DNA from: Ruegeria conchae
Lineage (GTDB): Bacteria; Pseudomonadota; Alphaproteobacteria; Rhodobacterales; Rhodobacteraceae
DNA length: 64,000 nt
Direction of reading: 5' to 3'
Assembly: GCF_000192475.1 (NCBI RefSeq)
Contig: NZ_AEYW01000004.1
Coordinates: forward strand, 1-64,000
A model generated the notes under the pieces. The model worked only from the letters and a program-made list of their open reading frames with translations. It was not told the origin of the DNA and did no database searches. Position numbers and translations under genes: made by a program. The stretch's first letter is position 1; each line of letters starts with the position of its first letter. This document shows, one piece after another, positions 33 to 17,115 of the stretch.

Positions 33-285
33 CTATCGGGGCAACGACAAAATCTGTAGGCGCGCGCATATCGTTGCGCGCCCAACACTGATTACATTCA
101 GAAAATTACGGATTCTACGCCCATAACCTTGCGCGAGATTTGCGCATAAGTTTGCATTTTTTGCCCATAAGTTTGCGCGGTGCGTAGAATTCGTTCAATT
201 TATAGTAGTCCTCTCTCAGCTCAATCGACTTTAGACGCTCATCCACAATCAAGAGTGCACTCTGGTCGAAAAAATTCAACCCTAG
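33..285 (+). repeat. Dispersed iteron-bearing repeat, copy A
   Basis: This stretch aligns without gaps to 16209-16376 and, with one 1-bp gap, on to about 16460, at roughly 70% identity by eye over the core. A shared 14-mer (acaaaatctgtagg) lies at 47-60. It contains three same-direction copies of a 13-bp motif close to CCCATAAGTTTGC, at 120-132, 143-155 and 164-176, spaced 21-23 bp, or about two helical turns. A degenerate opposite-strand copy lies near 33-48. The copy may extend left of the window. It is not a promoter for the next gene, which is on the minus strand with its 3' end facing the repeat. Function is unknown. Confidence 0.7.
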
Positions 286-625
286 TCAGTGGGAAACAGT
301 TCTAAGGCAATTGTGAGAGACTTGTTGGCCAAGATAACGTCGAGCGCCTTGTCTGAGCCGATCTTATTTTCCTAGCTAGTACCGCATACTCATTATCGAG
401 CATCCGAAAGTGACGGCGCCGAGATCGGTTGCCTGCCATTGAAGCTGAAGCTTCGGTTTGAGATCAATGCCAGCTGATCAGTCGAGACGCGGATTCACTT
501 GCGGAGCTACGGCGCATCTCGCCCGAAGCGCTGATTGAAGTAGGACAATCGGGATAGAAGCAATAACTATTCCTATGCGGGCGATTTCGCTGTCCGCGCG
601 CTCGTGCAGGATCCGGCGGCCAAAT
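286..625. other. Gene-free stretch without recognisable content
   Basis: Between the iteron repeat and the 3' end of the hydrolase gene I see no convincing reading frame, no structured RNA and no clear terminator. All frames carry frequent stops. It may be degenerate intergenic sequence. Confidence 0.5.
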
Positions 626-1321
626 TCAAATCGCGGACATTAGCATTCGGGCCAAGTCGTCAGGCTTGTCGATCATCACGTAGTGCCCGAATGGCACCGA
701 AATCGCCGTCCACCCCGACTGATACTGGTATCGCTCAAAAAACGGTTGGCCAAGCCCAGGGACCCAGCCGGTGGCATAGATGTAGGTCCGCTTTACCACC
801 TCGGCTCGGCCGCTCACCAGTTGCATCGGTTGCTCAAATGTCTTGAGTGGTTGCGCGACATTTCGGCGGTCCACCCACGCACAGTCTGCTCCATTCACCG
901 AAAAAGCCTCCGCTGGGCCCGGCGCGACTTTACCACCGGCGGCACTATCACGAAGCCCTGCCGCGATATCCGCAGGCAAAACATCCAAGGCCGCCTGCCC
1001 ATCGCCCGGTACGAGCGCATCGAGGTACACAAGTGAGCGAATGTGGTCGGGCGCTCTATCCGCCACTCCGGTGACAACCATGCCGCCATAGCTATGACCG
1101 CACAAAACAATGTCAGAGAGTTCTTCGCACGTGATTACCCCTAGGACATCCTCGATATGCATGGCCAGATCGGTTTCGTCACTAACGAGGTGAGCACGTT
1201 CACCCAACCCTGTCAGTGTCGGGGTGAAAACGTCGTGGCCGTCCCTGCGCAGAAGGGCGGCTACGCGAGCCCAACACCATCCCCCTTGCCACGCTCCGTG
1301 GACCAATACAAATGTCGCCAT
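626..1321 (-). CDS. Alpha/beta hydrolase (EstC/salicylate-esterase-like)
   Basis: The 231-residue protein is a compact cytoplasmic alpha/beta hydrolase of the family that includes plant methyl-salicylate-type esterases and bacterial EstC. The N-terminus carries the oxyanion-hole strand VLVHGAWQGGW. The nucleophile elbow GHSYGG puts the catalytic serine at about residue 77, and FGHYVMIDKP near residue 213 supplies the histidine. The acid could be D101 (YLDALVP) or a later aspartate. No signal peptide is visible. It is a single gene with the repeat beyond its 3' end and divergent from the L,D-transpeptidase. The substrate, probably a small ester or amide, cannot be read from sequence. Confidence 0.8.
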   Translation of the reverse strand: MATFVLVHGAWQGGWCWARVAALLRRDGHDVFTPTLTGLGERAHLVSDETDLAMHIEDVLGVITCEELSDIVLCGHSYGGMVVTGVADRAPDHIRSLVYLDALVPGDGQAALDVLPADIAAGLRDSAAGGKVAPGPAEAFSVNGADCAWVDRRNVAQPLKTFEQPMQLVSGRAEVVKRTYIYATGWVPGLGQPFFERYQYQSGWTAISVPFGHYVMIDKPDDLARMLMSAI

Positions 1322-1549
1322 AACCCGCCCAACTCCGTCGATACTGCAATGACAGTAGATTCAACAGGGCCGCCTCGTCCACAGGATCGTTTGGACGTTC
1401 AGCGTCAATCCCCTGCATATACACACAGCACTCGAACCCTCCAATCAAATGGCCATACTAAAATCATAAATTACGATTTGATTATACATTATGTATGAGT
1501 ATCCTCCCACATAGAGACAGCATATAGCGCGAAGCCGCAGGAGGTATTG

Positions 1550-3175
1550 GTGGGTCACGTTAAGTCGTTAGTCGCGATTTCGCTAACTGCATTGGTAACA
1601 ATATTCCCCAACCCAAGTGTCGCAAACGAGATATCAGAGCAGTTTGCTTCTCTACTCGGTGCCAAGTTGGACGTGAGTAGCACGCTACCTGACAGAAAGA
1701 GCTTGGATGCTGAAATCCTAGTGCCGCGTTTTTACGAAGAGAGGGGCTTCACTCCTGCGTGGACACGCGATGAATTGGCAGACGAACTCTTGGAGGAGTT
1801 GGATGGCGCTATAGAACAGGGCTTCAGACCGGAAGATTTTGACATAGCGGAGCTTCAAGCCGCATTTAAGGCCGCCCAAACTGGCGATGTTTCTAATCAA
1901 GCATTGTTCGATATTCTGGCAACGGACGCTGCGGTGAAACTGGTTCATCATTTGGTGTTTGGGAAAGTCGACCCAAATGCACTGGACGATGATTGGAACT
2001 TCTCAAAACCGGTAATTCAACAAGACCCAGCCGTTGCCCTGAATCAGTTTCTTCAAGGTGAAGGTTTTAGCGCGTTAATCGAACGCATCGATATCGACAA
2101 TGCGCAGTATACGATGCTTGTCGAAGCACTGAGTAAGTATAGGGCCATTGCTTTACAGGGCGGTTGGACCAATGTTCCGGATGAAACCGTTCTTAAACCA
2201 GAGATTGTGGACCCTGCTGTCGCTAAGCTGCGCGAAAGGCTGGCGGCAGAAGGCTTCGTTGAAACAAGCGGTTCTTCTGAAGACGGTGAAAACGGCATAA
2301 ACACAGCTTGGGTTTACGACGATAACTTGGTGAAATTAGTCAAATCTTTTCAGAGTCGGCATGGATTAGAAGCCGATGGGGTCATTGGCGGTAAGACGTT
2401 CGCATCGCTAAACAAACCGGTGGAAGATCGAATTAACAAGCTGCGTCTCAGCTTGGAACGTGGCCGCTGGCTTATGCGGGAAGTCGACGACGAATTCGTG
2501 CTGGTGAACATTGCAGGAGCCCGCACATATTTGGTCACATCGGATGGCACGCTTTGGACCACTAGATCAATCACAGGGTCAGCCTATCGAAAGACCCCAG
2601 TGTTCCGAGACGAAATCAAGTATATGGAATTCAATCCCACCTGGACCGTTCCCGCCTCGATTTTTCGTAAAGACAAACTTTCGCGCATCCGCAAGGATCC
2701 AGCCTATCTGACACGCAACAACTATGTTGTTCGGAACAAGGATGGCCAGACAATCCCCGCAAACGCCGTAAACTGGGGGGCGAAGAACCCCGGCGTGACC
2801 CTGGTTCAGCAGCCGGGCCCAGACAATGCGCTGGGTTTGGTTAAGTTCATGTTTCCAAACAAATATGCTGTATACTTGCACGACACAAACGACAAAACCC
2901 TTTTTGACCGAAACGAGAGTAATCTCAGTTCCGGCTGCGTTCGCCTTGAGTATCCGTTCGAGTTCGCGAGCCTTCTGATGGAGGGAGAGCCAGATTGGAG
3001 CCGGCAGAAGATGCAGTCCATTTTGGATAGCGGAAAGACAACGCGCGTTGATCTACCTGAGCCAATGCCGGTTCTTTTGACATATTGGACAGCGTGGGTC
3101 GAAGACGGGGTCGTTCATTTCCGCGAGGACCCTTACGAACGGGATGCCCGTATCCTGGCAGCTTTGGACCGATGA
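1550..3175 (+). CDS. L,D-transpeptidase (YcbB/LdtD type)
   Basis: A secreted peptidoglycan cross-linking enzyme of about 541 residues, a usual length for the YcbB-like group. An N-terminal signal peptide ends near PSVA-NE. A PG_binding_1 module lies around residues 254-290 (the FQSRHGLEADG segment). The YkuD catalytic domain follows, with His444 (HDTNDK) and the SSGCVRL motif holding the nucleophile Cys463. GTG at 1550 is preferred because AGGAGG (1539-1544) sits five bases upstream; an in-frame TTG at 1547 would be too close. It would form 3-3 cross-links in the periplasm or attach proteins to peptidoglycan. It is followed on the same strand by the AsmA-like gene after about 110 bp. Confidence 0.9.
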   Translation: MGHVKSLVAISLTALVTIFPNPSVANEISEQFASLLGAKLDVSSTLPDRKSLDAEILVPRFYEERGFTPAWTRDELADELLEELDGAIEQGFRPEDFDIAELQAAFKAAQTGDVSNQALFDILATDAAVKLVHHLVFGKVDPNALDDDWNFSKPVIQQDPAVALNQFLQGEGFSALIERIDIDNAQYTMLVEALSKYRAIALQGGWTNVPDETVLKPEIVDPAVAKLRERLAAEGFVETSGSSEDGENGINTAWVYDDNLVKLVKSFQSRHGLEADGVIGGKTFASLNKPVEDRINKLRLSLERGRWLMREVDDEFVLVNIAGARTYLVTSDGTLWTTRSITGSAYRKTPVFRDEIKYMEFNPTWTVPASIFRKDKLSRIRKDPAYLTRNNYVVRNKDGQTIPANAVNWGAKNPGVTLVQQPGPDNALGLVKFMFPNKYAVYLHDTNDKTLFDRNESNLSSGCVRLEYPFEFASLLMEGEPDWSRQKMQSILDSGKTTRVDLPEPMPVLLTYWTAWVEDGVVHFREDPYERDARILAALDR

Positions 3176-3287
3176 GCACGAAATGCGCGGCGCGCGAGAA
3201 CCGAGTTACGTGCCCAACTTTTTCAGTAGATTGGCAAACGCCGAATTGCAGATAGACAAAACGGCGTAGGCGACGTCAGGGGGATGC

Positions 3288-6032
3288 ATGAGGACTTGGC
3301 TGTTTAGAACAATTGGGATTGTCGTACTACTTGTGTTTGCAACAATCGCACTTGTTTGGTTGCTACTTGCTGCGCCGCTATTCTCGGAGATGCGACGTGA
3401 CCTGGTCGAAAAAGTCCTTTCTGAACAAATCGGACAACCGATTGTGGTTAATGACGATGTAAGTGTCGCGCTTGGACGCATTACCCACATTTACGTCGGT
3501 GGTGTGGTTATCCCGAGCCAAACTATGCCGGAAACATCTCTTGCGGAATTGAACCTTCTGGAACTGGAATTGGATGTTGCTGCTTTGGCCAATCGACGTC
3601 TGCACTTTGACAACCTCGTCGTTGACGGTCTCCAGGCGAATTTCCTTACAGCTGCTGACGGCACTACAAGTTGGCGAAAAGGCCGACCGACGCCAAAACC
3701 TGAACCCGAAAACGCCACGGAAGAGGACAATCAAGAGGCTATAGCTGAGACCGGCGGATCCAATGAGGGCGACCCAGAAGGTAGTGGAATCCTCTCATTC
3801 CTGAGCGACAAGAATGTAACTTTCACATCCATTGGGTTGAACATTGATGATCAATCCTCTGGCTTTTCGTTCGTGTTTGACCTCCAGTCTCTCGCTCTGG
3901 AACAGGTAGACGAAGGGCAAAGAACAAAGGTCTCGGGGACAGGCTCCGTCAACGGCCAAAGTTTCGAAATCGAGGGTGACTATCCTCATAGTGCGCCGTT
4001 TGCGACGCGCGCCAATTTTGGCGAAATGACGGTAAGCTACGACGGCGAACCTTTTTCGGAAAGCGAGGGAGGTGGCTATCGTGCTGTCTTGCAGATGGAC
4101 ACTGGTGAATTCGGTGACTTTCTTGAAGTCATTGGGCTGGAGCGAGTTCTGGAAGGGAATGGCCAGTTGCAAGCAGAGCTTGTTTCTCAGGATGCTCTGA
4201 AAATCGAGACCTTTACGACCACCGTAAACCTTGAGGACGGACAGCAACTTACAGCAGAAGGATCGATAGAAGACCTCTACACAGCTAGGGGCGTTGATCT
4301 GCTATTCGACGCGCGGCTTTATCCTGAGGGGCAGCCGCCGAACGCAGCAAAGAGTTTCCAGGAGCTGAAGTTCACAGCCTTTGAAATGCACATGATAGGA
4401 TCACTTGCGTCTTTCGAGTTCGAGAAACTTCTGTTCCAAACTAACGCATTTGATCAAGGCCTGGACGTGATCGGGCCAGCCTCTATCGAACGCATTCGCC
4501 GCATGCCCGATGGTCGGCTTGCGATGCTGGGCATCGCCTTACAGGCTGGACCCATTGAGGACCCAATTCTAAAGGCCGACGGCGAAATTCTCGACCTGCT
4601 TCAGCTTCAGGACGTGACTTTCGAAGGCACACTCAACGGGCCGGCCAAATTGATTTTGCCAAATATGGATGAAGATTTTGTCGATCAGCTCGGTGGCATA
4701 AATGCCGACTTCAGCTTGTCCAATGAAGGAGGGCCTGTTTCGCTCAACAGGTTTAATGCAACCACCTATGGCACAGATATTTGGGCGCTTGACCTCGCGC
4801 TATCGGTCAGCGAATTGAAAGGGCTGTCAGGCCTTGATTTTAACGTGGAACTGGATGTCAGCGACGGAGCTAGTTTTCTGACTGCGCTTAAATTGCAACC
4901 TGTCGAGATTGGCGCACTTGCCGTCGATGCAGTGACGTCGAAGCAGGGCGAGGACTTCACTGCCTCAATCGAGTTTGAAGCCGGTTCGTCACACCTTCTG
5001 GCCGCTTTGGATGCAAAATTTCCCGAGGGCGCTTCTGTAATTCGCGGAAACGTTGCGAGTAAAAGGCTCGATTTAAACGATCTAAAAAACCTGACCGCTA
5101 CGCTGGACCAGCTTAAAAGCTTGGTAGGCGACGCTTCAAAAGATCCTGAAACCGACGTACAGCCCTTGGTTCTACCGAAGGAAACCAACGTACAGCCCCT
5201 GGTTTTACCAAAGGAGAAAGGAAAGCCAGCCGATCTTCTGGATGTGCAGCGCGTACTGAGAGAGGCTGACGTTCAGGTACAGATCGACTTTAAGGAGATT
5301 GTTGGCCAACAAGGCGTAACTTCTGTTTCCAGCCAATTGTCTGCAAAAGAAGGGACCGTAGATTTTGGCCCGCTCCAGATGGCTTATGGCGGTGGAAACT
5401 TCAGCCTACGGGCAGTGATGGATCTGATTGACTCACCTGATTGGCTCTCCTTGTCGGGGTCAACTTCAGGATGGGAATTCGGAGAGATTCTCGATGAACT
5501 GGGTATCGGGATAGATGCATATGGGCGATTGAGTGGTGAGTTCAACGTTTCAGGCAATACCGCGTCTGGCAATGCGTTTGTGAATTCCATGCGCGGCACT
5601 GCTTCTTTATCGATGTCACAAGGCTATGTCAGCACCAGCCTTCTGGAGTTGGCAGGGCTTGGTATTTTCCCATGGCTGTTTTCAGAGGAACTCCGTCAAG
5701 GTTACACGGACATAACATGCGTTGTGGCACCAATTAGCATCGAAGCCGGCCGGGTAAGCTCAGACTCCATCGTGGTTGAAACGGGTTCTGTTCAATTGGT
5801 GGCCAAGGGCCAAGTGGATTGGGTCAAAGATTTCATTGCGATCAGGGCAGAACCCCGTCGAGTTGGCAAACCGTTATCCCGTAGCGCGTGGCCGTTTGAT
5901 GTGACTGGCCAACTTTCGTCACCGAAGTTCAAGTTGGATGTGGGTGGATCCAGAAACAAGGCTCCGGAAGGTGCTGATGCGATGCCGGCAGACAGGCAAC
6001 CGTGCGTGCCAGACATGAATCAGCTTCAATAG
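3288..6032 (+). CDS. AsmA-like envelope protein
   Basis: A 914-residue protein with one N-terminal membrane anchor (about residues 9-30) and a long beta-rich periplasmic body, the layout of the AsmA/TamB-like family thought to bridge inner and outer membranes for lipid traffic. The N-terminal part (anchor followed by a VLSEQIGQPIVV-type segment) and a C-terminal AsmA_2-like region (about residues 690-890, with GxSGEFNVSG-type repeats) fit the family. An acidic low-complexity linker lies around residues 130-165, and an 11-residue tandem duplication at residues 622-643. CAGGGGG just upstream of ATG 3288 supports the start. Exact lipid or partner is unknown. Confidence 0.8.
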   Translation: MRTWLFRTIGIVVLLVFATIALVWLLLAAPLFSEMRRDLVEKVLSEQIGQPIVVNDDVSVALGRITHIYVGGVVIPSQTMPETSLAELNLLELELDVAALANRRLHFDNLVVDGLQANFLTAADGTTSWRKGRPTPKPEPENATEEDNQEAIAETGGSNEGDPEGSGILSFLSDKNVTFTSIGLNIDDQSSGFSFVFDLQSLALEQVDEGQRTKVSGTGSVNGQSFEIEGDYPHSAPFATRANFGEMTVSYDGEPFSESEGGGYRAVLQMDTGEFGDFLEVIGLERVLEGNGQLQAELVSQDALKIETFTTTVNLEDGQQLTAEGSIEDLYTARGVDLLFDARLYPEGQPPNAAKSFQELKFTAFEMHMIGSLASFEFEKLLFQTNAFDQGLDVIGPASIERIRRMPDGRLAMLGIALQAGPIEDPILKADGEILDLLQLQDVTFEGTLNGPAKLILPNMDEDFVDQLGGINADFSLSNEGGPVSLNRFNATTYGTDIWALDLALSVSELKGLSGLDFNVELDVSDGASFLTALKLQPVEIGALAVDAVTSKQGEDFTASIEFEAGSSHLLAALDAKFPEGASVIRGNVASKRLDLNDLKNLTATLDQLKSLVGDASKDPETDVQPLVLPKETNVQPLVLPKEKGKPADLLDVQRVLREADVQVQIDFKEIVGQQGVTSVSSQLSAKEGTVDFGPLQMAYGGGNFSLRAVMDLIDSPDWLSLSGSTSGWEFGEILDELGIGIDAYGRLSGEFNVSGNTASGNAFVNSMRGTASLSMSQGYVSTSLLELAGLGIFPWLFSEELRQGYTDITCVVAPISIEAGRVSSDSIVVETGSVQLVAKGQVDWVKDFIAIRAEPRRVGKPLSRSAWPFDVTGQLSSPKFKLDVGGSRNKAPEGADAMPADRQPCVPDMNQLQ
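5151..5216 (+). repeat. 33-bp in-frame tandem duplication within the AsmA-like gene
   Basis: Two adjacent 33-bp units (5151-5183 and 5184-5216) encode TDVQPLVLPKE and TNVQPLVLPKE. They differ at five bases, four of them silent, so the duplication is not brand new and the peptide is being conserved. It lies in a linker between beta domains. Confidence 0.85.
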
Positions 6033-6043
6033 TCGGTCACGAC

Positions 6044-6544
6044 CTAGTTCTTGAGTGGTTCAGGCTGTTCTGCCTGACATGCCAAAACGGCCCCGATGGC
6101 TTTTGAGGACCCACTTAGATCAAGTTCTACTTCGGCTCCACTTTCACCAATAATCGTGACGCTTTGGCGCTTGCCGAATTCGGTTACAAACGCAGGGTTG
6201 TCGAAAAAGGCGTAACCCCCGGGGACGCCATTTTTAAAAACACCTATGGCTTCGCCTTCAAACTTTGCGTCACCAAAATCGAAGTTCACGATACCGGTTG
6301 ATCCGTCCTCAATCTGAACCCAGGTCGGATTGTAAGCGGCGAAGAAACCGCCAGCCTGATTGGGTGCGACGCCAATCTCAACTGTCATGTCGTCTTCGAA
6401 GGGCTTCCACGCGAGGCAGCCGTTTCCTTTCTCGGGGTCGATCAAAATTTTCCAGTCGCCGGACTCACCCCACGGCTCCATACCAGCGGCAACAGCGCCA
6501 CTCGCGAGAAGCGTTACTATTGCGGTAAATGTCCAATTGATCAT
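6044..6544 (-). CDS. Secreted protein of unknown function
   Basis: A 166-residue exported protein with signal peptide MINWTFTAIVTLLASG and cleavage near AVA-AG. The mature part is acidic with alternating glycine/aromatic strands, suggesting a beta-sandwich, and has two cysteines (NGCLAW and LACQAE) that could form a disulphide. I do not recognise a family. ATG 6544 is chosen because GGGG lies six bases upstream; a TTG at 6556 would add four residues. It is convergent with the AsmA-like gene and only 11 bp from its end. Confidence 0.7.
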   Translation of the reverse strand: MINWTFTAIVTLLASGAVAAGMEPWGESGDWKILIDPEKGNGCLAWKPFEDDMTVEIGVAPNQAGGFFAAYNPTWVQIEDGSTGIVNFDFGDAKFEGEAIGVFKNGVPGGYAFFDNPAFVTEFGKRQSVTIIGESGAEVELDLSGSSKAIGAVLACQAEQPEPLKN

Positions 6545-6668
6545 CTGGAACCCCAAAACTTTCTGAAAACTATTGCATTAATCCTACCCATAGCTCTGGA
6601 TCAATCAAACTAATCCGACAACCTGCAAGGGCGGGGTTTTGTGGACCCAGAGTGGGCTTGGTATTCTT

Positions 6669-8282
6669 TTACTCCGCTATATGAGCAAGCTTTCCATCCC
6701 ATTCCTCAGTGGGAATCTTAGGACTTTGCGGGTCAGCCATGTAGGACGGTGTCATAATTTGCGTACTGTTCTCGTTGAACACTTCCACGATGTTTTGGTG
6801 TAGATCAGACAGAATCTTAGGCAAACTCGATCCCCGAGACGTGTACGCGTTGATTTCGTAATTGATGGCATAGTCAGCCAACTGTGTCCAAAGTACAAAA
6901 GGCTCCGGGTTTTTCTTCAAACCCTGTGTGCGATGAGCCGCCTCTATCAACATTGCCGTGATTTTTTTTGGCGGCTCCTCGTACCCGATCCCGACCGTTG
7001 TGTGAACGAGAAGGCCTCGACCATCGACTTTGCGCGAATAATTCACGACTTCTGAGTTCAACAACTGAGCGTTTGGAATACTGATCATTTCGTTTTTGAT
7101 GGATTTGATAAGTGTTTCCATAAGCTTGATTTCGGTTACGTCCCCTATCTTGTCGCCAACCATTATTCGATCACCAACATTCGTGCTGCGCCGATAGATG
7201 ACAAACAGACCTGCCATCATGTTCGATACAACTGTGTTAGATCCCAACGAGACCATGATACCGGCAAGAATTGTCAGGCCTTGAAACGCCCGGGAACCTG
7301 AGCCCGGAATGTATGGGTAAGCGAACACCAGCGCGATCACGATAACCAAAGCCCTGAACAGCATGTTTGTTGGCGCGATCCAGTGCGCCTCGAAACCTTT
7401 GATTTCAAACGCCCCGTTCTCCAGGTTGTCAAAGAACAGATCGAGGCCACGGATCGCAAACCGGCTTACAGCTGCTATAATTACCAGCATGATCAGATTT
7501 GGGATGTACCCAATGACAGCCAGCACAACGGTAATCAATGGCTCACTGACGTACTTAAGAAGAACTTGAGCAATGGCCCGGGTTTCCGCGAACGACAGCA
7601 ATACCAAGGACAGGTAGTAGTAGAGAAAAAACAGAAACAGCACCCACATCAAAGCATGAATTGAATAAACGATGATAGACGCGATTGCCCTGCTTCGTAG
7701 GATTGACTTTGTAGCTTCCTCGACGCTTTCCGCTCTCTTTTCCAAGTTGTTTCTGACGTAGCCCAGAAACTTCTTCCGTTTGGCAAAGAAGAAGTATGAC
7801 ACCAGTGCAAACAACGCCGTCCAAGCAACAGCGGCCAAGGTGCTGTCAACGCGGCCTTCGCTGGATCGCGCTTCCCGGTACTTTAAAATGGCATTTTCGA
7901 TGGCCTCTGCTTGCAGCCCGGCCAGAACTTCAATGTCCATCTGTTCGTGGTCGGCGTCAGCCTGAGTGGTAATAGTGACCATATGGCCGTCGACGCGTAC
8001 GAGTTGTCCAAATTCAGCTCGGGAGATTTGGATGTCGACCGTTTTGCTCTCTGATCTATCCGCGACTTGAGTAATTCTTTCTTCAATCTTTGCGGCCCTG
8101 TCCGTTGCAGGCAATGCGCTGGATCCGCGGACGACAAAAAGTTCATCCCCATCGACAACAACAGGTGCTATGAATTCGGGATCTTCTCGTTCCTGCTGTG
8201 GCAGCAGTATTTCTTCTGACTGAGCCGAGGCGACACTGCAAAGAAGCAGAAAGGACATCATCCATATTACTAATGCTCTCAT
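6669..8282 (-). CDS. MscS-family mechanosensitive channel with periplasmic N-terminus
   Basis: A 537-residue inner-membrane protein. After a signal-like N-terminus (LLLCSVASAQS) comes about 130 residues of extracytoplasmic sequence, then several membrane segments (about 148-166, 200-228, 250-275, 310-330, 338-365). The last is the pore-lining helix followed by the MscS beta domain (VGDRIMVGDKIGDVTEI, SIPNAQLLNSEVVNYSR). Family members open under membrane tension to release osmolytes. Its ATG overlaps the stop of the upstream MscS gene (ATGA, 8279-8282), so the two are translationally coupled and may form a pair. Ligand gating through the N-terminal domain is possible but unproven. Confidence 0.85.
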   Translation of the reverse strand: MRALVIWMMSFLLLCSVASAQSEEILLPQQEREDPEFIAPVVVDGDELFVVRGSSALPATDRAAKIEERITQVADRSESKTVDIQISRAEFGQLVRVDGHMVTITTQADADHEQMDIEVLAGLQAEAIENAILKYREARSSEGRVDSTLAAVAWTALFALVSYFFFAKRKKFLGYVRNNLEKRAESVEEATKSILRSRAIASIIVYSIHALMWVLFLFFLYYYLSLVLLSFAETRAIAQVLLKYVSEPLITVVLAVIGYIPNLIMLVIIAAVSRFAIRGLDLFFDNLENGAFEIKGFEAHWIAPTNMLFRALVIVIALVFAYPYIPGSGSRAFQGLTILAGIMVSLGSNTVVSNMMAGLFVIYRRSTNVGDRIMVGDKIGDVTEIKLMETLIKSIKNEMISIPNAQLLNSEVVNYSRKVDGRGLLVHTTVGIGYEEPPKKITAMLIEAAHRTQGLKKNPEPFVLWTQLADYAINYEINAYTSRGSSLPKILSDLHQNIVEVFNENSTQIMTPSYMADPQSPKIPTEEWDGKLAHIAE

Positions 8283-9601: not shown

Positions 9602-9663
9602 GACACTAAAGCTCCCACATAAAGACTGAAGAGATCGTAAGGAGACCGGAAAGGTCTGCCATC

Positions 9664-9701
9664 AAAAATAGTTGGGGGCGACCCACTCACTTGCCGCCCC
9701 C
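9664..9701 (-). terminator. Intrinsic terminator after the porin gene
   Basis: Read on the minus strand, a 7-bp GGGGGCG/CGCCCCC stem (9674-9680 with 9695-9701) is followed within a few bases by a TATTTTT tract (9664-9670). It lies about 50 bp beyond the porin stop and would separate the porin unit from the MscS pair. Confidence 0.7.
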
Positions 9702-9752
9702 GCCCGTTCCGGCAAAAATGCAGCCCGAACGGAAACTACTAACCGGCATGCA

Positions 9753-11042
9753 TCAAAGATTGACCCTCAGTCTCAGTCCTAAGACCAGCGGGTCGTTCGA
9801 GTTTGATCCGGGATTTTTCAGGTATTGCACGTCTGCCGTCAGTGCCAGATTGTCGGCCAGGTCCAAACGGTAGAAAACTTCAAGTGTCGTTTGACTGGGC
9901 AATCCTGGTGTCGTCAGGTCGGCAACAGTGGCCGCTATGCCAAGGAGATCATCGTAGGTGCCAGGTCGCCACATCAAGCCTGCGTTGACTGCACGCCTGG
10001 CCAGCGCACCCCCGCCATTGGACCATCCCAGCCGTCCGAAAATCATCAGTTGGCTGTCGAATGTATGGTTGGCAGAAAGTGTGGCTCCATATGTTTCCGG
10101 TACGCCAACTTGTCGGCGCGCATCTGTGTGAAACATCCCCAGATGAACGTTTGTCAGAAATCGTTTTGATTTTTCGGGCGTCCAGCCGATCTCGGCGTAT
10201 TTGTAGAATTCGCTACCCCCGGAAAACCACTCAATGTCTGTGAGAGACCCATTGGCATCGCTAACTACCCCTAACGCGTAAATCTGGTCCGTTAGATAGC
10301 CGCCGACGGTGACGCCAAAACCTGGATCGGGGATTGGCAGCACCGGGCTAAACAGGATCGAATAGTTCGAAAAGGTCGTTCGTGGGTTCACGTAACCCAG
10401 AATGTCAGAGTAGTCGCCCGGATCGATCCGACCCGCCACCACTCCTCCGCGGCCGTTTGCGAAGGCTTGTTGCCAGTAAGCTACCGACAAGGTCGTGTTT
10501 GTGTCCCCAAACGTGACCGCGGTTGCCCCTTGATACCCAATTTGCGCAGGCAGCGCTGAAGGTGCAATGGACTGGCCCAACCGGTGTCGGTTCTCCAGAA
10601 TAAAGACAAGGCTACCCGGGTTTTCACCACCCCGGTTTGCCAATTCCCACGTCCCGATCATCCTGAGCTGACCGGATGCAGATTCGTCTTGCCCGGTCAG
10701 GCTGTGAGAACTGCGCTGGTATAGCGCCTGATAGTCGAAGCTGAGGGCTAATCCGGTGTTTTCCCGAAATCGACCCAAAGCGTTCTCGGCTGGATCAATG
10801 GCACGGTCCAAACCGGGCCAACGCGAATCTTCCAGCCGGCGCAACCTGTCTTGCTCCTGCTGCGCGCTGGCTGATCCCGGACCACCCAACGATACCTGGG
10901 CTGCGGCCTCCAGTTTGGCCTGACCAGCGTTTTCCTGTGCGCCAGCAGCACCGGCAAATAGTGCAAAGGCGCTCAATAACGCGGTGGAAAGGGTCGGTCG
11001 TGATGGAAGGTACGATCTCTGGTGCGACAAAACTCCAATCAC
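9753..11042 (-). CDS. OprB-like outer-membrane porin
   Basis: A 429-residue outer-membrane beta-barrel. The N-terminus has a long signal region ending at AGAAGAQ-EN, then a coiled, alanine/glutamine-rich stretch before the barrel. It shows alternating aromatic/polar strands, repeated ENRHRLG/FLTNVHLGMF-type strands and a terminal LRLRVNL typical of barrels, and resembles carbohydrate-selective OprB porins. The start is GTG overlapping the stop of the upstream GYD gene (GTGA, 11039-11042). An internal ATG is not favoured. Placed downstream of two secreted amidohydrolases, it probably admits their substrate or releases their product. Sugar specificity cannot be assigned. Confidence 0.75.
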   Translation of the reverse strand: MIGVLSHQRSYLPSRPTLSTALLSAFALFAGAAGAQENAGQAKLEAAAQVSLGGPGSASAQQEQDRLRRLEDSRWPGLDRAIDPAENALGRFRENTGLALSFDYQALYQRSSHSLTGQDESASGQLRMIGTWELANRGGENPGSLVFILENRHRLGQSIAPSALPAQIGYQGATAVTFGDTNTTLSVAYWQQAFANGRGGVVAGRIDPGDYSDILGYVNPRTTFSNYSILFSPVLPIPDPGFGVTVGGYLTDQIYALGVVSDANGSLTDIEWFSGGSEFYKYAEIGWTPEKSKRFLTNVHLGMFHTDARRQVGVPETYGATLSANHTFDSQLMIFGRLGWSNGGGALARRAVNAGLMWRPGTYDDLLGIAATVADLTTPGLPSQTTLEVFYRLDLADNLALTADVQYLKNPGSNSNDPLVLGLRLRVNL

Positions 11043-11440
11043 TTTACATCATCCACAGCTTTTATTTCGGAAACACGTTCCAGCGCCGCAGCCATGTCGG
11101 CGCTGCTCATCAACTCGATCATCTGGTAATCATCAAGCAGGCCATCGCCGAGGCGGCTAACATAGAAGGCTTGGATAAAGGTAGGGTCATCTGGCAGGGA
11201 GACGGTGATGTAGTTCTTCCCGTTCCCAAGTCCCCAGTAATAGCTCAAAAGCTCTCCACCGAGCGCTTCGATCCCGCCCTTCACCGAGGCTGCGCGATCC
11301 CCCGGATTGGCGATCTGCATTTCCCAAGCGGTGCTATTGGACGTGCCAATGAACAAAAACGTACGCATGCTTTCGGCGTCTTCAGCTGCGGCAATTGAAC
11401 CACAGATCGCCATAAAGACGCCAAGGCTGAGATGTTTCAC
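11039..11440 (-). CDS. Secreted GYD-domain-like small protein
   Basis: A 133-residue protein with a signal peptide (VFMAICGSIAAAED). The rest resembles the GYD family (a ferredoxin-like alpha/beta fold of unknown function). The start is GTG 11440 with AAAGGAAAG about five bases upstream. It sits between the amidohydrolase genes and the porin gene and overlaps the latter by four bases, so it belongs to the same transcription unit. Periplasmic placement of a GYD-type protein is unusual, since most are cytoplasmic. No function is claimed. Confidence 0.6.
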   Translation of the reverse strand: MKHLSLGVFMAICGSIAAAEDAESMRTFLFIGTSNSTAWEMQIANPGDRAASVKGGIEALGGELLSYYWGLGNGKNYITVSLPDDPTFIQAFYVSRLGDGLLDDYQMIELMSSADMAAALERVSEIKAVDDVK

Positions 11441-11512
11441 AGTCTTTCCTTTCAGGGAAGGTTTCTTGGCTGAAGTGTGGGGTTATCAAAGATAGACCAC
11501 CCCACTTTCCTT

Positions 11513-12904
11513 TTATTGCAGCGTATTCTTGTAGAATTTGCCGTCTTTCATGATGACACGGATGGTGTCGAAACCTTCTTCACGCGGTTCCGCGTCAAAC
11601 CATTTCGGTTGGGCCCCCAAGACAGAAAGATCTTCCAGCGGGTTGCCATCGACGATCAGGATATCGGCGTAGGCTCCTTCTTGGATCACCCCCAACTGCT
11701 CCGGATAAGGATTACGTTGGCCAGTCAGCTGCGCCAGTTCGCCCGCGGTCGACGTAGCGGAGACCAGCATGGCATGATTGCCGAACCAATCAGCAAACTG
11801 GTACTTTTCGAAATCGCGATGGGCACGGCCCTGATCGAGCGTTGACAGTACTGTATCAACGTTGTGCACGACCTTGGGTTTGTATTTCTTGACAAGCGCG
11901 ATGAGATCCTTGCTTTGGTCATGTGCAACCGCAAGCTTGATGCCTGCTGGCGTACCCGGTGCAAAGTTCGGGTGCTCAAACAGGATCGGTGAGAACCCGG
12001 CGGTGTTGAGGGACCAGAATATCCCTTCATCAGCCATTCGTTTCACGGTTTCTTCTGTGACCATCTGGCCGTGTTCAATAACCTTGACGCCCGCATCCAG
12101 TGCCATTTGGACAGTTTCGTCCGTGTATGCATGCGTAAAGGCATAAGTATCAAAAAAGGCTGCGACCTCTACGGCCGCCCTGATCTCTTCCACGCCGTAT
12201 CCCACAGACCAAAGCGGGTCTAATTCCGAGGAAACACCGCCGCCGACGGTTAACTTGATTTGCGTGGCCCCATAGCTGAGGTTCCGGCGCGCGGCCGTTC
12301 TGATTTCGTCTACGCCGTCCGCAACGACCGCGAGATTGAGTTCTTCCACCTGTGCGACGGGGCCACCTTCAGCCCGGGCACGAGGGCTGCGCCAGTCCGT
12401 GTGACCAGATTGTGGGCCGATGCACGCGCCGCTCGGGTAAATCCGTGGCCCGACAAGGATATTCTGATCGATCAGCTTTTTCATCGCATCGCCTTGGCCA
12501 CAGGCATCGCGAACCGTTGTGTACCCATCCATAAGGTAATCACGCGCGTTTGCGACCGCCATCGCGCCGACGCCGTCCCAATTCGCATATTCCGCGCCAC
12601 CAAAGCTTGTGAACAGACCGGTCAGGTTCAGATGGACGTGGCTGTCGATCAGCCCGGGCATCAATGTGCGACCACCTCCATCCACAACCGTCGCGCCAGG
12701 CGCGTCGATAGCCTCGGTGGACACTTCTTTGATCAAGTTGCCTTCAACCAGAACGCTGGCGTTCTCGATCCGCGCCTCATTTACTCCGTCAAAGACATGG
12801 ACGTTGGTGAACAGGGTTTGTGGCAGGGTGTCCTGCGCAAACGCAGCAGTGGCAGTGAAAAAAACCAGGCTCGCGACGGCAGCCGTCTTTGTCGAAATAT
12901 TCAT
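11513..12904 (-). CDS. Secreted amidohydrolase (imidazolonepropionase/prolidase-like), copy 1
   Basis: A 463-residue metal-dependent hydrolase of the amidohydrolase superfamily with a signal peptide (ATAAFAQD). The N-terminal beta-sandwich is followed by the metal-binding HxH (H89, H91 in LIDSHVHLN), a likely carboxylated lysine in TQIKLTVGGG, further histidines in FTHAYTD and VIEHGQM, and a late aspartate (VVHNVDT). The close group includes secreted Xaa-Pro dipeptidase-like and cyclic-amide hydrolases. It is a clear paralogue of the adjacent upstream gene, sharing LFTNVHVFDGVNEARIENA. Both are periplasmic, next to a porin and a GYD protein. Substrate is unknown; a cyclic amide or dipeptide is a reasonable guess. 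Confidence 0.82.
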   Translation of the reverse strand: MNISTKTAAVASLVFFTATAAFAQDTLPQTLFTNVHVFDGVNEARIENASVLVEGNLIKEVSTEAIDAPGATVVDGGGRTLMPGLIDSHVHLNLTGLFTSFGGAEYANWDGVGAMAVANARDYLMDGYTTVRDACGQGDAMKKLIDQNILVGPRIYPSGACIGPQSGHTDWRSPRARAEGGPVAQVEELNLAVVADGVDEIRTAARRNLSYGATQIKLTVGGGVSSELDPLWSVGYGVEEIRAAVEVAAFFDTYAFTHAYTDETVQMALDAGVKVIEHGQMVTEETVKRMADEGIFWSLNTAGFSPILFEHPNFAPGTPAGIKLAVAHDQSKDLIALVKKYKPKVVHNVDTVLSTLDQGRAHRDFEKYQFADWFGNHAMLVSATSTAGELAQLTGQRNPYPEQLGVIQEGAYADILIVDGNPLEDLSVLGAQPKWFDAEPREEGFDTIRVIMKDGKFYKNTLQ

Positions 12905-12966
12905 GTCCTTCTCTCCCTTAAAATTTAGTGCGCGGGGTGCCGAGGTAAGTTCACCCCACGCGACAC

Positions 12967-14358
12967 TCAGTCGAGTGTGTTCTTGTAGATCACGCCATCT
13001 TTCATGATGATCTTCAGATTGGTGTCGGGATCGGACAGCAGCAGGATGTCCTCCAGCGGGTTCCCATCAACCAATAGAAGATCGGCGTATGCACCCTCTT
13101 CGACCACACCCAGCGGGCCGTCCTGATAAGGATTGTTCAAACCTGTAAGACGGTTCATGCGCGCACCGTTTGACGTTGCGATGCGTAAAATGTCGAAGGG
13201 TGTGAAATTCGCTTCAAGCAGGTATTTGAACTCGTCGCTCATCTTCTTGTCCTGCTCTAGCGTTTGGTCCCAGTTGTTGATGAGGTCAGTGCCCAGGGTG
13301 TAGAGATCGATCATGCCTGGCGTGGTTTGAATTACTTCAATCATGTTGGCCGCGGCATCCCGCACCGCCTTCCACTTCGCAAACGACGCTGGTGTGTAAA
13401 ATGCTTCGGCCTGCTCGGTGGAGACCGAGTAGACCGGAGCCACGGCGGTCGCAAACATGATCTGTTTTTGAACCATGACCTCGGCCACTTCCGGAGTCAG
13501 AAACGGAATGTGTTCGACGGTCTTCGCGCCATTGTCGATACAGTTTCGGATCGCCTGTTCAGTGAACACATGGCAGGTCACATAAGTGCCCCATTGTTCG
13601 GCGGTTTTGACTGCCATCTGGATTTCATCGGCTTGGTACTGAAGCGAATGCAGGGGGTCGAACTCGGACGTAACACCGCCGCTGACCATAATTTTGATCT
13701 GGGTTGCCCCGCGGCGCAGGTTCTCGCGTACAGCCATCCGGATCTGATCCGGCCCATCGGCTATAAAGCTCATTTCACTTTCGACCCAATGTGATGGTCC
13801 TTGCCCAGACAGTGTGGGATGCCGGTCGTTCAGTTTACGGAAGTCCGCGTGCCCGGATGTCTGGGTGATGAAGGCTTCAGACGAGTAAATGCGCGGCCCT
13901 GGAAACATGCCGGAATCTATAATGCGAGCGATGGATTTTGCTGGTCCGCCTAGGTCCCGGACAGTGGTGAACCCATTCATCAGGATGCGTTCAGACCGAA
14001 TTGTCGCGACGCCGCCAAGGTGAAAGGGTGTTATATTCTGGCGCAACCCATCGCTGAGAGGGTTGAACACCGTAAGATGCACGTGTTGATCATGCATTCC
14101 GGGCATCAGTGTGCGCCCACCACCGTCGATGATTTGCGCATTGGCGACGGCAAGCGGCTCAGTCGAGACCTCGGCGATCAGGTTATCAACGACCAAAACA
14201 TTTGCGTTCTCGATCCGCGCTTCGTTCACCCCATCAAAGACATGAACATTTGTGAAAAGGATCGGGAAACTTTCTTCCTGTGCAGCGGCATGAGTTGGAA
14301 ACAGATGGCTCGCAGCTAGTACTGCGGGCACAAGTATGCGCATCAGACATCCGTTCAT
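12967..14358 (-). CDS. Secreted amidohydrolase, copy 2 (paralogue)
   Basis: This gene is a tandem paralogue of the downstream amidohydrolase. With ATG 14358 it is 463 residues, the same length as its partner. That start has AGGAG five bases upstream, whereas the upstream ATG at 14394 has no Shine-Dalgarno. A signal peptide (ILVPAVLAASHLFPTHAAAQ) precedes the conserved LFTNVHVFDGVNEARIENA segment, the HxH pair (HDQHVHLT), the putative carboxylated lysine (TQIKIMVSGGV) and later metal ligands (VTCHVFTEQ, VEHIPF, LGTDLINN). It is first in the minus-strand unit and diverges from the AraC regulator, which may control it. Divergence from copy 1 suggests a related but different substrate. Confidence 0.82.
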   Translation of the reverse strand: MNGCLMRILVPAVLAASHLFPTHAAAQEESFPILFTNVHVFDGVNEARIENANVLVVDNLIAEVSTEPLAVANAQIIDGGGRTLMPGMHDQHVHLTVFNPLSDGLRQNITPFHLGGVATIRSERILMNGFTTVRDLGGPAKSIARIIDSGMFPGPRIYSSEAFITQTSGHADFRKLNDRHPTLSGQGPSHWVESEMSFIADGPDQIRMAVRENLRRGATQIKIMVSGGVTSEFDPLHSLQYQADEIQMAVKTAEQWGTYVTCHVFTEQAIRNCIDNGAKTVEHIPFLTPEVAEVMVQKQIMFATAVAPVYSVSTEQAEAFYTPASFAKWKAVRDAAANMIEVIQTTPGMIDLYTLGTDLINNWDQTLEQDKKMSDEFKYLLEANFTPFDILRIATSNGARMNRLTGLNNPYQDGPLGVVEEGAYADLLLVDGNPLEDILLLSDPDTNLKIIMKDGVIYKNTLD

Positions 14359-14538
14359 CAGGGCTCCTATCAACAAGAATCGCAAAAGGCGCATTTAGGA
14401 GTCATTATAGAATTCGAATAACTTGATGCCTGACAATTTGCCGGTTCGTGAAAAATAGTTTTGGAAAACTGCAAGATTTAATAATTTTATTGTGGGAATT
14501 TCCTACACTCGGGCATATTGCGAATTTCTGGAGAAGAG

Positions 14539-15564
14539 ATGACAAGAAGACTTGGTAATAACACGGATCAGTCGCTGCCACTCGTCAGGGCTTCAGTTGC
14601 GGGTCCGGTTGTCGCAGCGCTTCGCAGCGTAGGGGTCGAACCCGCGTTTGTTCTTGATCCTCTGGGGTTGAACGAAGCGCAGGTAATGGACCCGAAGAAT
14701 TTCCTGCGCCACGATACCGTCTACCAGATCTATCAGGCCGTGGCAGAAGCCACTTCAACGGATTTTTGCGCACGGGTCGGGCAATCCGTTGACCTTGTCA
14801 AATTTCTCCCGCTTGGCGATATGCTGGCAGAAGCCCTTACATTGGGAGACTTCTTTACCAGGTTCACACAAGCGGTTTCCAAGGAATCCAATGCCGTTAC
14901 GCAATCCCTCTTTGTTGAAGGAGAGCACGCGTATTTCAGTGCCAAAAGGAACTTCCAAATTTCGGTTTCTCCCAGCCAAACCGACGCGTTTCTGACGAGT
15001 ATATGGATATCCCTGTTGCACCGTGTCCTGGATTTCAGGTGGGACCCCAACCAGGTCATTCTTCGCGTCAGTGACCCGGATGCGCTGCCCGGTCAGTTTC
15101 ACGGCGTTCGGGCAATCAAGTGCAATCCTCAAGGTTTTTCGATCAGGTTTCCCTCCAGCTGGTTAAGTTACAGACTACGACCAGAGGCACTGGAAAACCC
15201 CCCAGACTACAGGGTTATGGATGAAGATCTGGCCGCCCCGCAGGATTTCCTTGCGGGACTGAAAGGCCTAATCAGGGTCCATCTTTCGGATTCAGGATTT
15301 GGTGTGGATGAGCTTGCGGACCTTTGCGGCTTTCATCAGGAAACACTGAACAACCGGCTGGAACCTTACGGTCAAACGGCGTCCCAAGTGATCGCGCGCA
15401 TTAAGCAGGAAGAAGCCGAACGCCTGCTGGCAAAAGACAATAAATCCGTCGGCGAGACAGCGCAAAGGCTTGGCTATGCCGACCCAACCGCCTTCTCCAG
15501 AGCATTTCGTAAATGGACGGGCGTATCTCCGGCAGCCTACAAGAAATCAAACCGGAAGGACTAG
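14539..15564 (+). CDS. AraC-family transcriptional regulator
   Basis: A 341-residue regulator. The N-terminal ~200 residues match the arabinose-binding-like domain of the OruR/AraC-type subgroup, and the C-terminal 90 residues hold the two AraC helix-turn-helix motifs (VDELADLCGFHQETLNNRL and VGETAQRLGYADPTAFSRAF). ATG 14539 is chosen because GGAG (14530-14533) sits five bases upstream; a TTG at 14518 is possible. The gene is divergent from the amidohydrolase-GYD-porin unit across 180 bp, so it is a good candidate for its ligand-responsive activator. Confidence 0.85.
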   Translation: MTRRLGNNTDQSLPLVRASVAGPVVAALRSVGVEPAFVLDPLGLNEAQVMDPKNFLRHDTVYQIYQAVAEATSTDFCARVGQSVDLVKFLPLGDMLAEALTLGDFFTRFTQAVSKESNAVTQSLFVEGEHAYFSAKRNFQISVSPSQTDAFLTSIWISLLHRVLDFRWDPNQVILRVSDPDALPGQFHGVRAIKCNPQGFSIRFPSSWLSYRLRPEALENPPDYRVMDEDLAAPQDFLAGLKGLIRVHLSDSGFGVDELADLCGFHQETLNNRLEPYGQTASQVIARIKQEEAERLLAKDNKSVGETAQRLGYADPTAFSRAFRKWTGVSPAAYKKSNRKD

Positions 15565-15566
15565 CA

Positions 15567-15932
15567 TTGCTCCTGAACATCGCCGTCGGTCTTCTATCTG
15601 CATTTTTTCTCTTTGCTTCATCCATCAAGATTTTTGGGTGGCAAAAGAAGGTCTTTGAAATCCAGTTGGGCATGTTCGAAAGCTACGGCCTCAACAGGCA
15701 GATCATGTTCATCGTCGGATGCGGGGAACTTTTCGGGGCAATTGCCATCTGGTTTCAATCGTCGTGGATCGGGCCGCTAGGAGCACTTGCGTTGCTCTGC
15801 ACATCTGTCGGAGCGATATTCTGCCATCTAGTGTTCGATACCTGGAAGCAGGGTATACCGGCGACGATAACAGGGACACTTGCGGCTCTTGTTTTGAACG
15901 CTGGGTATTCAAAGCTTCTAAACATACTGTAG
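15567..15932 (+). CDS. DoxX-like small membrane protein
   Basis: A protein of about 121 residues with four hydrophobic segments and a short SIKIFGWQKK segment after the first helix, as in the DoxX/DUF4870-like membrane families. I choose the TTG at 15567: GGAAGGA (15554-15560) is six bases upstream, and the codon lies only two bases after the AraC stop, implying translational coupling. An earlier ATG (15513) inside the AraC gene is in frame but has no good ribosome site. Function is unknown; such proteins are often linked to quinone or redox chemistry. Confidence 0.65.
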   Translation: MLLNIAVGLLSAFFLFASSIKIFGWQKKVFEIQLGMFESYGLNRQIMFIVGCGELFGAIAIWFQSSWIGPLGALALLCTSVGAIFCHLVFDTWKQGIPATITGTLAALVLNAGYSKLLNIL

Positions 15933-16162
15933 CAACGGCCACCCGACCGATACCAGGAAATCCCAGGACAGCGATGGAACGTCCATAACGGACCTTTATT
16001 CTCGACTTTGCAAAGTCCGCTTTCTGCGCATCGCAGACCTTCGCGAGAATCCCAGGTTCCTTAGGGAGGCCCTTTGCGGGATTGAGCAATGCAAAGGGCC
16101 ATAACCGCAACGACTAAGCCATACACTGATTGAATTCGTCCTAATGCAGAGAAACGCGCAGC

Positions 16163-16460
16163 GCAAAACTATGGGCGAACTACGCAAACTTATGGGGTGT
16201 GCGAAGTGCTATGCGCAAACCTACAAAATCTGTAGGGACGCGCATAACGCTGCATTCTTATCATTGATTTTATTCAGAAAATCTGGGTGTCTTCGCCCAT
16301 AATTTTGCACAGCATTTGCGCATAGGTTTGCACGATTTTCCCATAAGATTGCACGGTTCACTATACGCGCTCAATTGTCGATTGTCGTACAGTGGCTTGA
16401 TCAACTTGAACGCACCATAACTCAGCCAAAAGTGCGTTATTCTTGGAACAATTCAACCCA
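16163..16460 (+). repeat. Dispersed iteron-bearing repeat, copy B
   Basis: This is the second copy of the element at 33-285, in the same orientation. Forward iterons close to CCCATAAGTTTGC occur at 16296-16308, about 16319-16331 and 16340-16352 with 22-bp spacing. Opposite-strand copies (GCAAAACTATGGG 16163-16175, GCAAACTTATGGG 16184-16196, and GCGCAAACCTAC ending at 16224) flank an acaaaatctgtagg core (16223-16236). The array lies between two convergent genes, so it is unlikely to be a promoter. No reading frame is contained in it. Confidence 0.7.
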
Positions 16461-16597
16461 AAACCGAACAAAACAACTCAATTGCGAGGCTATGGTAGAT
16501 TCCTTTCAATTTAGCTCGGCTCGGTTGGTTTAGATAAAAACTATTTAACATCGGCAATTCGACGCATGGGAACAGACGGCAGCAAGCTGTTTAAATT

Positions 16598-16957
16598 CTA
16601 GGGATGCGTCTCATTAAGACTGCATAGGGTGATTAGCCATCGACCATCTGGTTGTCGCTCAAGCACATTCAGCGAAACGCCTTCACCTGTCGTGCCTTCG
16701 CTAAATTCTGCAAGACACCAGCCGAGTTCGCCGTCTCGACCTGCACTAGAGACATTGATTTTTTTGTCTTCTCCACCTTCCGCGACCCACTCTGCATGTG
16801 TGTCTTCAATAGCTTGCCTTCCAATGGAAGGTGGGCCGAAGGGAGAGTACATCTCTGCTTGCGCTGCAAACACGGAAGCGCATCCATTGGCGTCCCCTTT
16901 TCGGTAGCAGGCGACATAGTGGTCGAATACCTCCTGGCACTGTTGTTTGAAGGACAT
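16598..16957 (-). CDS. NTF2/SnoaL-like protein
   Basis: A 119-residue single-domain protein with the cone-like SnoaL/DUF4440 pattern: an N-terminal helix (FDHYVACYRKGDANGCASVF), YSPFGPPSIGRQAIE, and beta strands ending WLITLCSLNETHP. Members act as small-molecule isomerases, hydrolases or binding proteins. AGGAG seven bases upstream supports ATG 16957. It is a single gene convergent with the DoxX-like gene. The substrate cannot be inferred. Confidence 0.65.
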   Translation of the reverse strand: MSFKQQCQEVFDHYVACYRKGDANGCASVFAAQAEMYSPFGPPSIGRQAIEDTHAEWVAEGGEDKKINVSSAGRDGELGWCLAEFSEGTTGEGVSLNVLERQPDGRWLITLCSLNETHP

Positions 16958-17115
16958 ACAAACACTCCTAATTTCGCTGTCCTAGCATCAGGTTCTGCAA
17001 TTCTACTGTCAAATCAACCTCGATCAGATTGTTTGCGTCGCTTCTACCTAGGACAAACCCGTCTTTTGTTTTGCGCCTGGGAACTGACATTTAAGCAAGA
17101 TGCAGCATTTGACTC

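Follow-up and report, generated by a model that had tools for sequence, protein, structure and literature searches.

The 64,000-nucleotide stretch of Ruegeria conchae DNA analyzed here (the window: positions 1 to 64,000 of contig NZ_AEYW01000004.1, C25 in our numbering) begins with a block of about 16 kb that is flanked by two related sequences, copies A and B, each bearing an array of 13-bp repeats. We are highly confident that these repeats belong to the two kinds of ends of Tn7-like transposons, of the type with a heteromeric TnsA+TnsB transposase, that the 16-kb block is one such transposon carrying cargo only, and that the family to which it belongs homes to the gyrB gene. The 13-bp repeats are probably TnsB-binding sites. 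A preliminary description of the window recognized no family with this motif; it now finds its place in Tn7-like ends that occur together with a tnsABC-tniQ operon. Below, genomes, contigs and loci are designated by G, C and L numbers.

Both copies are present as described, at positions 33-285 and 16209-16460. Their identity, previously put at about 70%, is 170 of 255 alignment columns (66.7%, with 5 gap columns), and 101 of 136 positions are identical in the core alignment (50-185 versus 16226-16361). Each copy contains the claimed three repeats at 21-23-bp spacing, which match CCCATAAGTTTGC with at most two mismatches on the plus strand (starting at 120, 143 and 164 in copy A and at 16296, 16319 and 16340 in copy B), and the opposite-strand repeats reported to the left of copy B are found, at the same threshold, at 16163 and 16184. 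A solitary repeat of this quality lies at 19971, and an additional repeat, overlooked previously, is located just inside each end (65 and 16241 on the plus strand, 16203 on the minus strand). Copy A is truncated on its left, the first base of the window being base 1 of contig C25, and copy B indeed sits between convergent open frames (15513-15932, plus; 16598-16957, minus). The number of single 13-mers in the window is within chance expectation (21 with up to three mismatches versus 15.3 expected; a count of 21 is attained in 8 of 100 shuffles). Two-repeat units, in contrast to the reversed control pattern, which gives no match, are found eight times in the 4.49-Mb window genome. The proposed count of arrays in relatives yielded this unit in 28 of the 54 genomes of the genus and the control in none of the 54.

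Lining up the sites on the short inverted repeat between their arms, with offsets read inward from TGTAGG, reveals two distinct ends placed head to head over a short, variable spacer. The repeats of the compact (P) end are located at offsets 10, 29 and 50, and those of the dispersed (D) end at offsets 10, 65, 88 and 109. Copies A and B are accordingly not equivalent wholes: the part common to both is the dispersed end, and the compact end is additionally present in copy B only. The array said to be roughly symmetric around acaaaatctgtagg does exist, with two unlike ends, compact and dispersed, joined head to head over AAATC in place of the symmetry. A scan of extracted loci, to which the end search was confined (the intervals in G016 and G027 include stretches outside these loci), recovered 58 P-ends and 51 D-ends, which are spread over 37 of the 54 genomes. 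With scoring matrices that were built without the window sequence, the D-ends at 55 and 16231 score 126.2 and 179.9, respectively, compared to -100.3 for the best non-site in C25, and the P-end at 16225 scores 98.4. The spacer at 25 abutting P-D junctions measures 5 bp in 16 cases, 6 bp in seven and 4 bp in two. A TGT start is typical of the Tn7-like transposase class, and the ends described here are asymmetric, contain multiple repeats and start with TGT.

The proposal that the arrays might mark the ends of mobile elements is borne out: they are transposon ends. The 16-kb block is delimited by facing D- and P-ends, with the same 5 bp outside both, the signature of a 5-bp target-site duplication (Table 1). 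Facing P- and D-ends bound 21 intervals, and the flanks match in 11 of these, including that of the window. To the right of the duplication starts the D-end of a second element, the homology of which to G008 and G048 ends near 17052, after approximately 0.8 kb; this element may be a truncated relic. The left flank (1-49) resembles a P-end at 16 of 23 bases, a match equaled by 33 of 100,000 shuffles, but was rejected as an end because its match to a coding sequence elsewhere in the window genome is better (43 of 46). A 360-amino-acid open frame inside a gyrB-array interval of G026 is 94% identical over 64 amino acids to the C7 relative of the permease-like fragment in this flank; by this sequence resemblance, the window copy may be nested in older cargo.

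Table 1. Features at the left end of the window
Feature	Coordinates	Strand	Basis
Outer flank: permease-like coding fragment (...VAPIVIPGILLAAWI; "permease" by eye), cut by contig start	1-49	-	43/46 bases of 4-49 match G000:C7:346821-346866
Left target-site duplication AAATC	50-54	.	Identical 5-mer at 16226-16230
Tn7-like element, cargo only, 16,171 bp	55-16225	.	Facing D- and P-ends, matching 5-bp repeat outside
D-end of 16-kb element, TGTAGG; repeats 65-77, 120-132, 143-155, 164-176	55-176	+	
Alpha/beta hydrolase	626-1321	-	Pfam
L,D-transpeptidase (YkuD, scaffold and peptidoglycan-binding domains)	1547-3175	+	Pfam
AsmA-family protein	3288-6032	+	Pfam
Two MscS-type mechanosensitive channels	6669-9601	-	Pfam
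OprB-family porin	9753-11042	-	Pfam
Two amidohydrolases	11513-14394	-	Pfam
AraC-type regulator and DoxX-like protein	14518-15932	+	Pfam
P-end of 16-kb element, TGTAGG at 16225 reading left; repeats 16203-16215, 16184-16196, 16163-16175	16163-16225	-	
Right target-site duplication AAATC, spacer to next element	16226-16230	.	
D-end of second element; repeats 16241-16253, 16296-16308, 16319-16331, 16340-16352	16231-16352	+	
Second-element stretch, ~98% common to G008 and G048, there also adjoining a P-end	16231-17052	.	

The link to gyrB came from clustering of neighboring genes. The preliminary description had suggested looking for a co-conserved DNA-binding protein; the clustering gave mostly shared cargo but exposed gyrB at five sites. 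We located gyrB in all 54 genomes and inspected the 3' flanks. In 31 of these genomes, a full three-repeat P-end lies directly past the gyrB stop codon. Under a looser test, TGTA[GC] starting 4-7 nucleotides past the stop, the number rises to 44 (5 nucleotides in 32 genomes, 6 in 10, and 4 and 7 in one each); the genomes that fail it are G001, G003, G004, G006, G018, G021, G045, G047, G050 and G052, of which G006 and G021 do have a P-end with one changed base. The family thus shows oriented homing to a conserved gene, with the P-end adjoining gyrB in the 31 genomes and a D-end in the window genome. Furthermore, the 5-mer that follows gyrB in a given genome recurs outside internal D-ends of the same genome in 29 of 50 cases (permutation mean 1.4, maximum 8 in 10,000) and outside internal P-ends in 15 of 27 (mean 0.6, maximum 6 in 10,000). 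This test allows a 1-nucleotide slip and leaves out the C12 D-end of the window genome, which is itself at gyrB; the D-end and P-end tests overlap because abutting ends have a common spacer. To judge from the sequences, gyrB 5-mers at internal sites are the trace to be expected of repeated insertion at one point with a duplication of about 5 bp. The DNA immediately outside the D-ends of G034 and G039, and that 0.1-2.1 kb outside the D-ends of G016, G042 and G011, recurs no more than 6 kb downstream of gyrB in G003, G014 or G035.

Several features of the surroundings of these arrays deserve mention. In G034, the spacer of one P-D junction (C1:3104333-3104339, L051) is TCAGG, of the gyrB type, although the junction is about 373 kb away from gyrB on the same contig, which suggests that a later rearrangement split an array. 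The draft contigs C12 (at its end), C4 (start), C25 (start) and C7 (end) of the window genome break at or near ends or the flanking gene; over 286 bp, the D-ends at C12:53521 and C4:282 share 98.6% identity, and these near-identical sequences probably broke the assembly. In G023 (L059, 2286-6175), open frames recognized by eye as dnaA, dnaN and recF are located just upstream of gyrB, which may place the gyrB arrays in the vicinity of the replication origin.

The transposition machinery of the family was identified in relatives. In G023, gyrB is followed by a P-end, genes for a TnsA-like protein, TnsB, TnsC and TniQ, and a D-end, in a 35,457-bp interval with GGATG outside both ends. The Pfam matches are Mu-transpos_C for TnsB (E-value 5e-12), TniB for TnsC (2e-12) and TniQ for TniQ (5e-13); NCBIfam gave only sub-cut-off matches to insertion sequence transposases for the TnsB gene and none for the TnsC and TniQ genes. 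Comparison with solved structures matched the G023 TnsB to chains named TnsB, including those of Tn6677 and Tn7 (E-values down to 2e-34), and the G023 TniQ to solved TniQ chains.

Across the genus, the G023 TnsB query has matches in 28 of 54 genomes and close, nearly full-length ones in nine, one of which (G007) contains an internal stop. In seven of the nine (G007, G022, G023, G027, G036, G038 and G039), tnsB and gyrB share a contig, with tnsB about 6-16 kb past gyrB; the tnsB genes of G025 and G028 are on a non-gyrB contig, where a D-end carries the gyrB 5-mer. The TniQ search produced matches in 29 of 54 genomes. Eight of 34 TniQ loci are related over the full length to the G023 TniQ (35-100% identity), and the others align over at most 220 amino acids at 21% identity or do not match. 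Six of the eight are on the gyrB contig, and the remaining two, in G025 and G028, share a contig with the D-end just mentioned. TniQ similarity alone was discarded as a marker of gyrB homing, given that G025 and G028 combine lower TniQ identity with gyrB-type flanks. In the window genome, the TniQ search gave no match and the G023 TnsB search no relative, so that its elements look cargo-only; a tblastn search with the G023 TnsA, TnsB, TnsC and TniQ (E-value 1e-3) gave no hits in the sequence covered, namely, the whole of C25 including the window, C12 and the first 40 kb of C4. A heteromeric TnsA+TnsB with TnsC and TniQ inside the ends is seen in relatives, in the form of the G023 operon, and not in the window element, which is at most a non-autonomous member of the Tn7-like group.

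A number of observations weigh against this interpretation, some of them specific to the window. Its AAATC differs from the TCTAG that follows gyrB in the window genome, and that gyrB is on contig C12, which is not joined to C25; for these two reasons, the window copy is not tied to gyrB homing. Moreover, the usual order of ends is inverted at the gyrB of this genome, which adjoins a D-end, and a matrix scan of the whole 222-kb contig C25 found no P-end partner for the D-end at 16231. At the level of the family, the spacers of 4 and 6 bp deviate from the canonical 5, the flanks do not match in 10 of the 21 end-bounded intervals, the gyrB 5-mer is not matched at 21 of the 50 internal D-ends or at 12 of the 27 internal P-ends, and the TGTA[GC] cases in G012, G035, G037 and G053 have no recognized repeats behind them. 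The TnsA call in G023 is weak (Pfam E-value 0.003 and NCBIfam E-value 2.7e-5, both below the cut-off), and G036 has tnsABC with no TniQ match on the tns contig. Finally, the DNA downstream of gyrB in G035 also occurs inside the window-genome interval C4:9329-11472, and that in G001 matches cargo-like genes on window-genome contig C1 that are seen in arrays. On account of these two matches, the DNA outside D-ends may be old cargo, and its location near gyrB in other genomes is supportive without proving an empty site; for the same reasons, G001 and G035 were dropped as candidates for empty gyrB sites.

A mechanism that would account for these arrangements can be outlined. By analogy with TnsD of Tn7, which, according to the accessible portions of PMC2918618, binds the 3' coding end of glmS with insertion about 20 bp past the stop codon, a TniQ/TnsD-type selector (the TniQ of about 600 amino acids) could read the 3' coding end of gyrB. 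TnsC would relay this choice to TnsAB, and insertion would follow about 5 bp past the gyrB stop codon, with the compact end facing gyrB. Because the gyrB target would survive each event, newer units could enter between gyrB and the older element, giving rise to tandem arrays of cargo. The 16-kb element itself was inserted with a 5-bp target duplication and adjoins the dispersed end of the second element at 16231. Most of the delimited units are devoid of a transposase; to move, they would depend on TnsABC-TniQ acting in trans, or else they would be relics. The ends, their spacings, the target duplications, the linkage to gyrB and the operon can be read from the sequences, and TnsB binding, the reading of gyrB by TniQ and mobilization in trans are inferred from them. 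The available portions of PMC11406308 describe target immunity that inhibits repeat insertion of Tn7; the tandem arrays suggest that, in this family, such immunity is weak, is evaded by diverged ends, or has been lost.

How much of this mobility is current is the point at which the strongest alternative enters, namely, that the arrays are relics of autonomous gyrB-homing transposons that decayed and lost their tns genes by deletion, with no mobilization of cargo-only units in trans. We regard this as quite possible, albeit somewhat short of probable. It is favored by the presence of tnsB in just three of the 21 end-bounded intervals (G023, G027 and G039), by a broken tnsB about 0.6 kb from 97%-identical cargo in G048:C13, and by several ends that lack a partner, and is countered by transposase-less units that retain both ends and a matching duplication (G026, G034, G042 and the window), as well as by the absence of a full-length relative of the G023 TnsB from 29 of the 37 end-carrying genomes, which fits recurrent arrival of cargo-only units. 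A more dynamic picture, which we put forward tentatively and consider a little less likely still, is that the gyrB gene of roseobacters serves as a homing site at which cargo units of operon size, free of transposase genes and each with both ends, are stacked by TnsABC-TniQ, be it resident or visiting. The outcome would be an array resembling the cassette array of an integron but built by Tn7-type transposition, found in most Ruegeria species examined, in which the units measure six to several tens of kilobases and several subfamilies of ends and transposases use a common target.

The remaining alternatives fare much worse. Attachment sites of a tyrosine recombinase, with a CTACA-N5-TGTAG core and arm sites, either as attP or as sites of a recombinase-in-trio, and with the block as an integrase-mobilized cassette, were our initial hypothesis: the halves of the inverted repeat in the core enclose a variable spacer of 4-6 bp, and arm-like repeats flank the core. 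This hypothesis was dropped, and we now consider it very improbable, because, on C25 and in the G023 array, no recombinase gene was found in or beside the ends (none of the nine PF00589 matches of the window genome is on C25, and none was recognized by eye among the genes of the G023 array), the spacers tend to equal the sequence that follows gyrB in the respective genome, single ends join gyrB directly, and a tnsABC-tniQ operon is located inside the ends. As for the options raised in the preliminary description, recombinase sites survive, in the guise of transposase end sites, and arrays bound by an initiator, partition or nucleoid protein can be practically dismissed: although the repeats are helically phased and the replication genes next to the G023 gyrB imply that a replication-linked role is not dismissible on location alone, the termini are TGTAGG, the spacer of 4-6 bp behaves as a target-site duplication, two fixed layouts recur in 37 of 54 genomes, several repeats are on other contigs or distant from gyrB, and the bounded intervals differ in gene content.

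Tn7-like transposons, the architecture of their ends and homing to conserved genes, including parE, are already known. The genes parE and gyrB are kin. With Tn7, which homes to glmS by means of TnsABC and TnsD, the family described here shares, to the extent covered by the accessible portions of PMC11406308 and PMC2918618, a heteromeric tns operon (in relatives of the window element), the 5-bp duplication, ends that differ in having either closely placed or spaced sites, with the closely placed ones on the side of the attachment site, and insertion just beyond the stop codon of a conserved gene. The consulted part of the former, a review, likewise notes that, of the two ends, the one with overlapping sites appears to be nearest the attachment site and that Tn7 relatives give 5-bp duplications. 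The differences from Tn7 are the gyrB target, insertion about 5 bp rather than about 20 bp past the stop, frequent tandem abutment, and a window element without tns genes. The Tn7017-type I-F3 CRISPR-associated transposon also relies on TniQ for homing to the gene for the B subunit of a type II topoisomerase, as described in the accessible part of PMC11406308; its target is parE as opposed to gyrB, and the TniQ found here is about 600 amino acids long. The Tn7-like islands of Benler et al. 2021 (PMC8649781, as far as accessible) similarly contain large cargo and have boundaries defined by repeat arrays of TnsB sites; that survey scans around tnsB, so that elements without a nearby tnsB, such as that of the window, would fall outside it. 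In the accessible portions of the literature searched (including PMC10293859, PMC8649781, PMC11406308, PMC2918618, PMC3478194 and PMC12452197), we found no report of gyrB homing of Tn7-like elements or of largely transposase-less arrays; gyrB homing or stacking at the attachment site may be in print in subscription journals. The term "gyrB" is absent from the main texts of PMC10293859 and PMC8649781, and word-initial "gyr" from that of PMC11406308.

With these results, a previously unexplained repeat becomes the boundary of a defined mobile element, and a hotspot of variable genes is indicated in a marine bacterial group. Surveys centered on tnsB would miss cargo-only units, so the amount of DNA mobilized by Tn7-like systems may be undercounted, and, gyrB being a common marker gene, the hotspot can be easily sought elsewhere. 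If gyrB homing by TniQ is real, this protein would be an added natural target selector for Tn7-type insertion tools.

The cargo of the 16-kb element (Table 1), which is of a metabolic and cell-envelope nature, includes two stretches beyond the Pfam assignments, 6044-6556, with no Pfam match, and 11039-11440, with a sub-cut-off match only. Stretches of this cargo are 95-97% identical over 12.4, 9.9 and 6.9 kb in G032, G008 and G048, respectively, and G008:C42 shares the P-D junction with AAATC, the intervening block being largely different. A further gene set, encoding proteins of about 477, 313, 259 and 318 amino acids, is common to many gyrB arrays: it was observed in G000:C1 (about 27.8-32.7 kb), in the arrays of G008, G034, G039, G023 and G016, and, in G001, in the neighborhood of gyrB. 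By eye, 16070-16098 contains a terminator-like hairpin, CCCTTTGC...GCAAAGGG, and similar sequence accompanies the gyrB-side P-ends in L050, L059, L072 and L080; in one class of P-ends, the hairpin is conserved at a distance of about 130-155 bp inward. The conserved hairpin could shield the gyrB side from transcription of the cargo.

Beyond Ruegeria, named genomes were scanned with a single exact pattern (GyrB ending in NLDF, stop, N4 to N7, TGTAGG), which itself imposes the spacing and the TGTAGG. It retrieved 79 stretches, 42 of them true gyrB ends by the upstream coding sequence and 37 not. Represented among the 42 are Ruegeria, Leisingera, Shimia, Sulfitobacter, Roseovarius, Loktanella, Tropicibacter, Thalassobius, Sagittula and others, together with Stutzerimonas and a Pseudomonas metagenome-assembled genome, and some of these gyrB-TGTAGG junctions have no clear repeats behind them. 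Within the genus, other families of ends that start with TGTAGGAT, several with repeats similar to CCCATAATCGTTCG, occupy the same point past gyrB in G013, G015, G024, G027, G030, G036 and G041, and several Tn7-like subfamilies may share the gyrB target. In two gammaproteobacterial sequences, L235 (Stutzerimonas stutzeri) and L260 (the Pseudomonas metagenome-assembled genome), a TGTAGGTGG-type sequence is found 5 bp past the gyrB stop codon.

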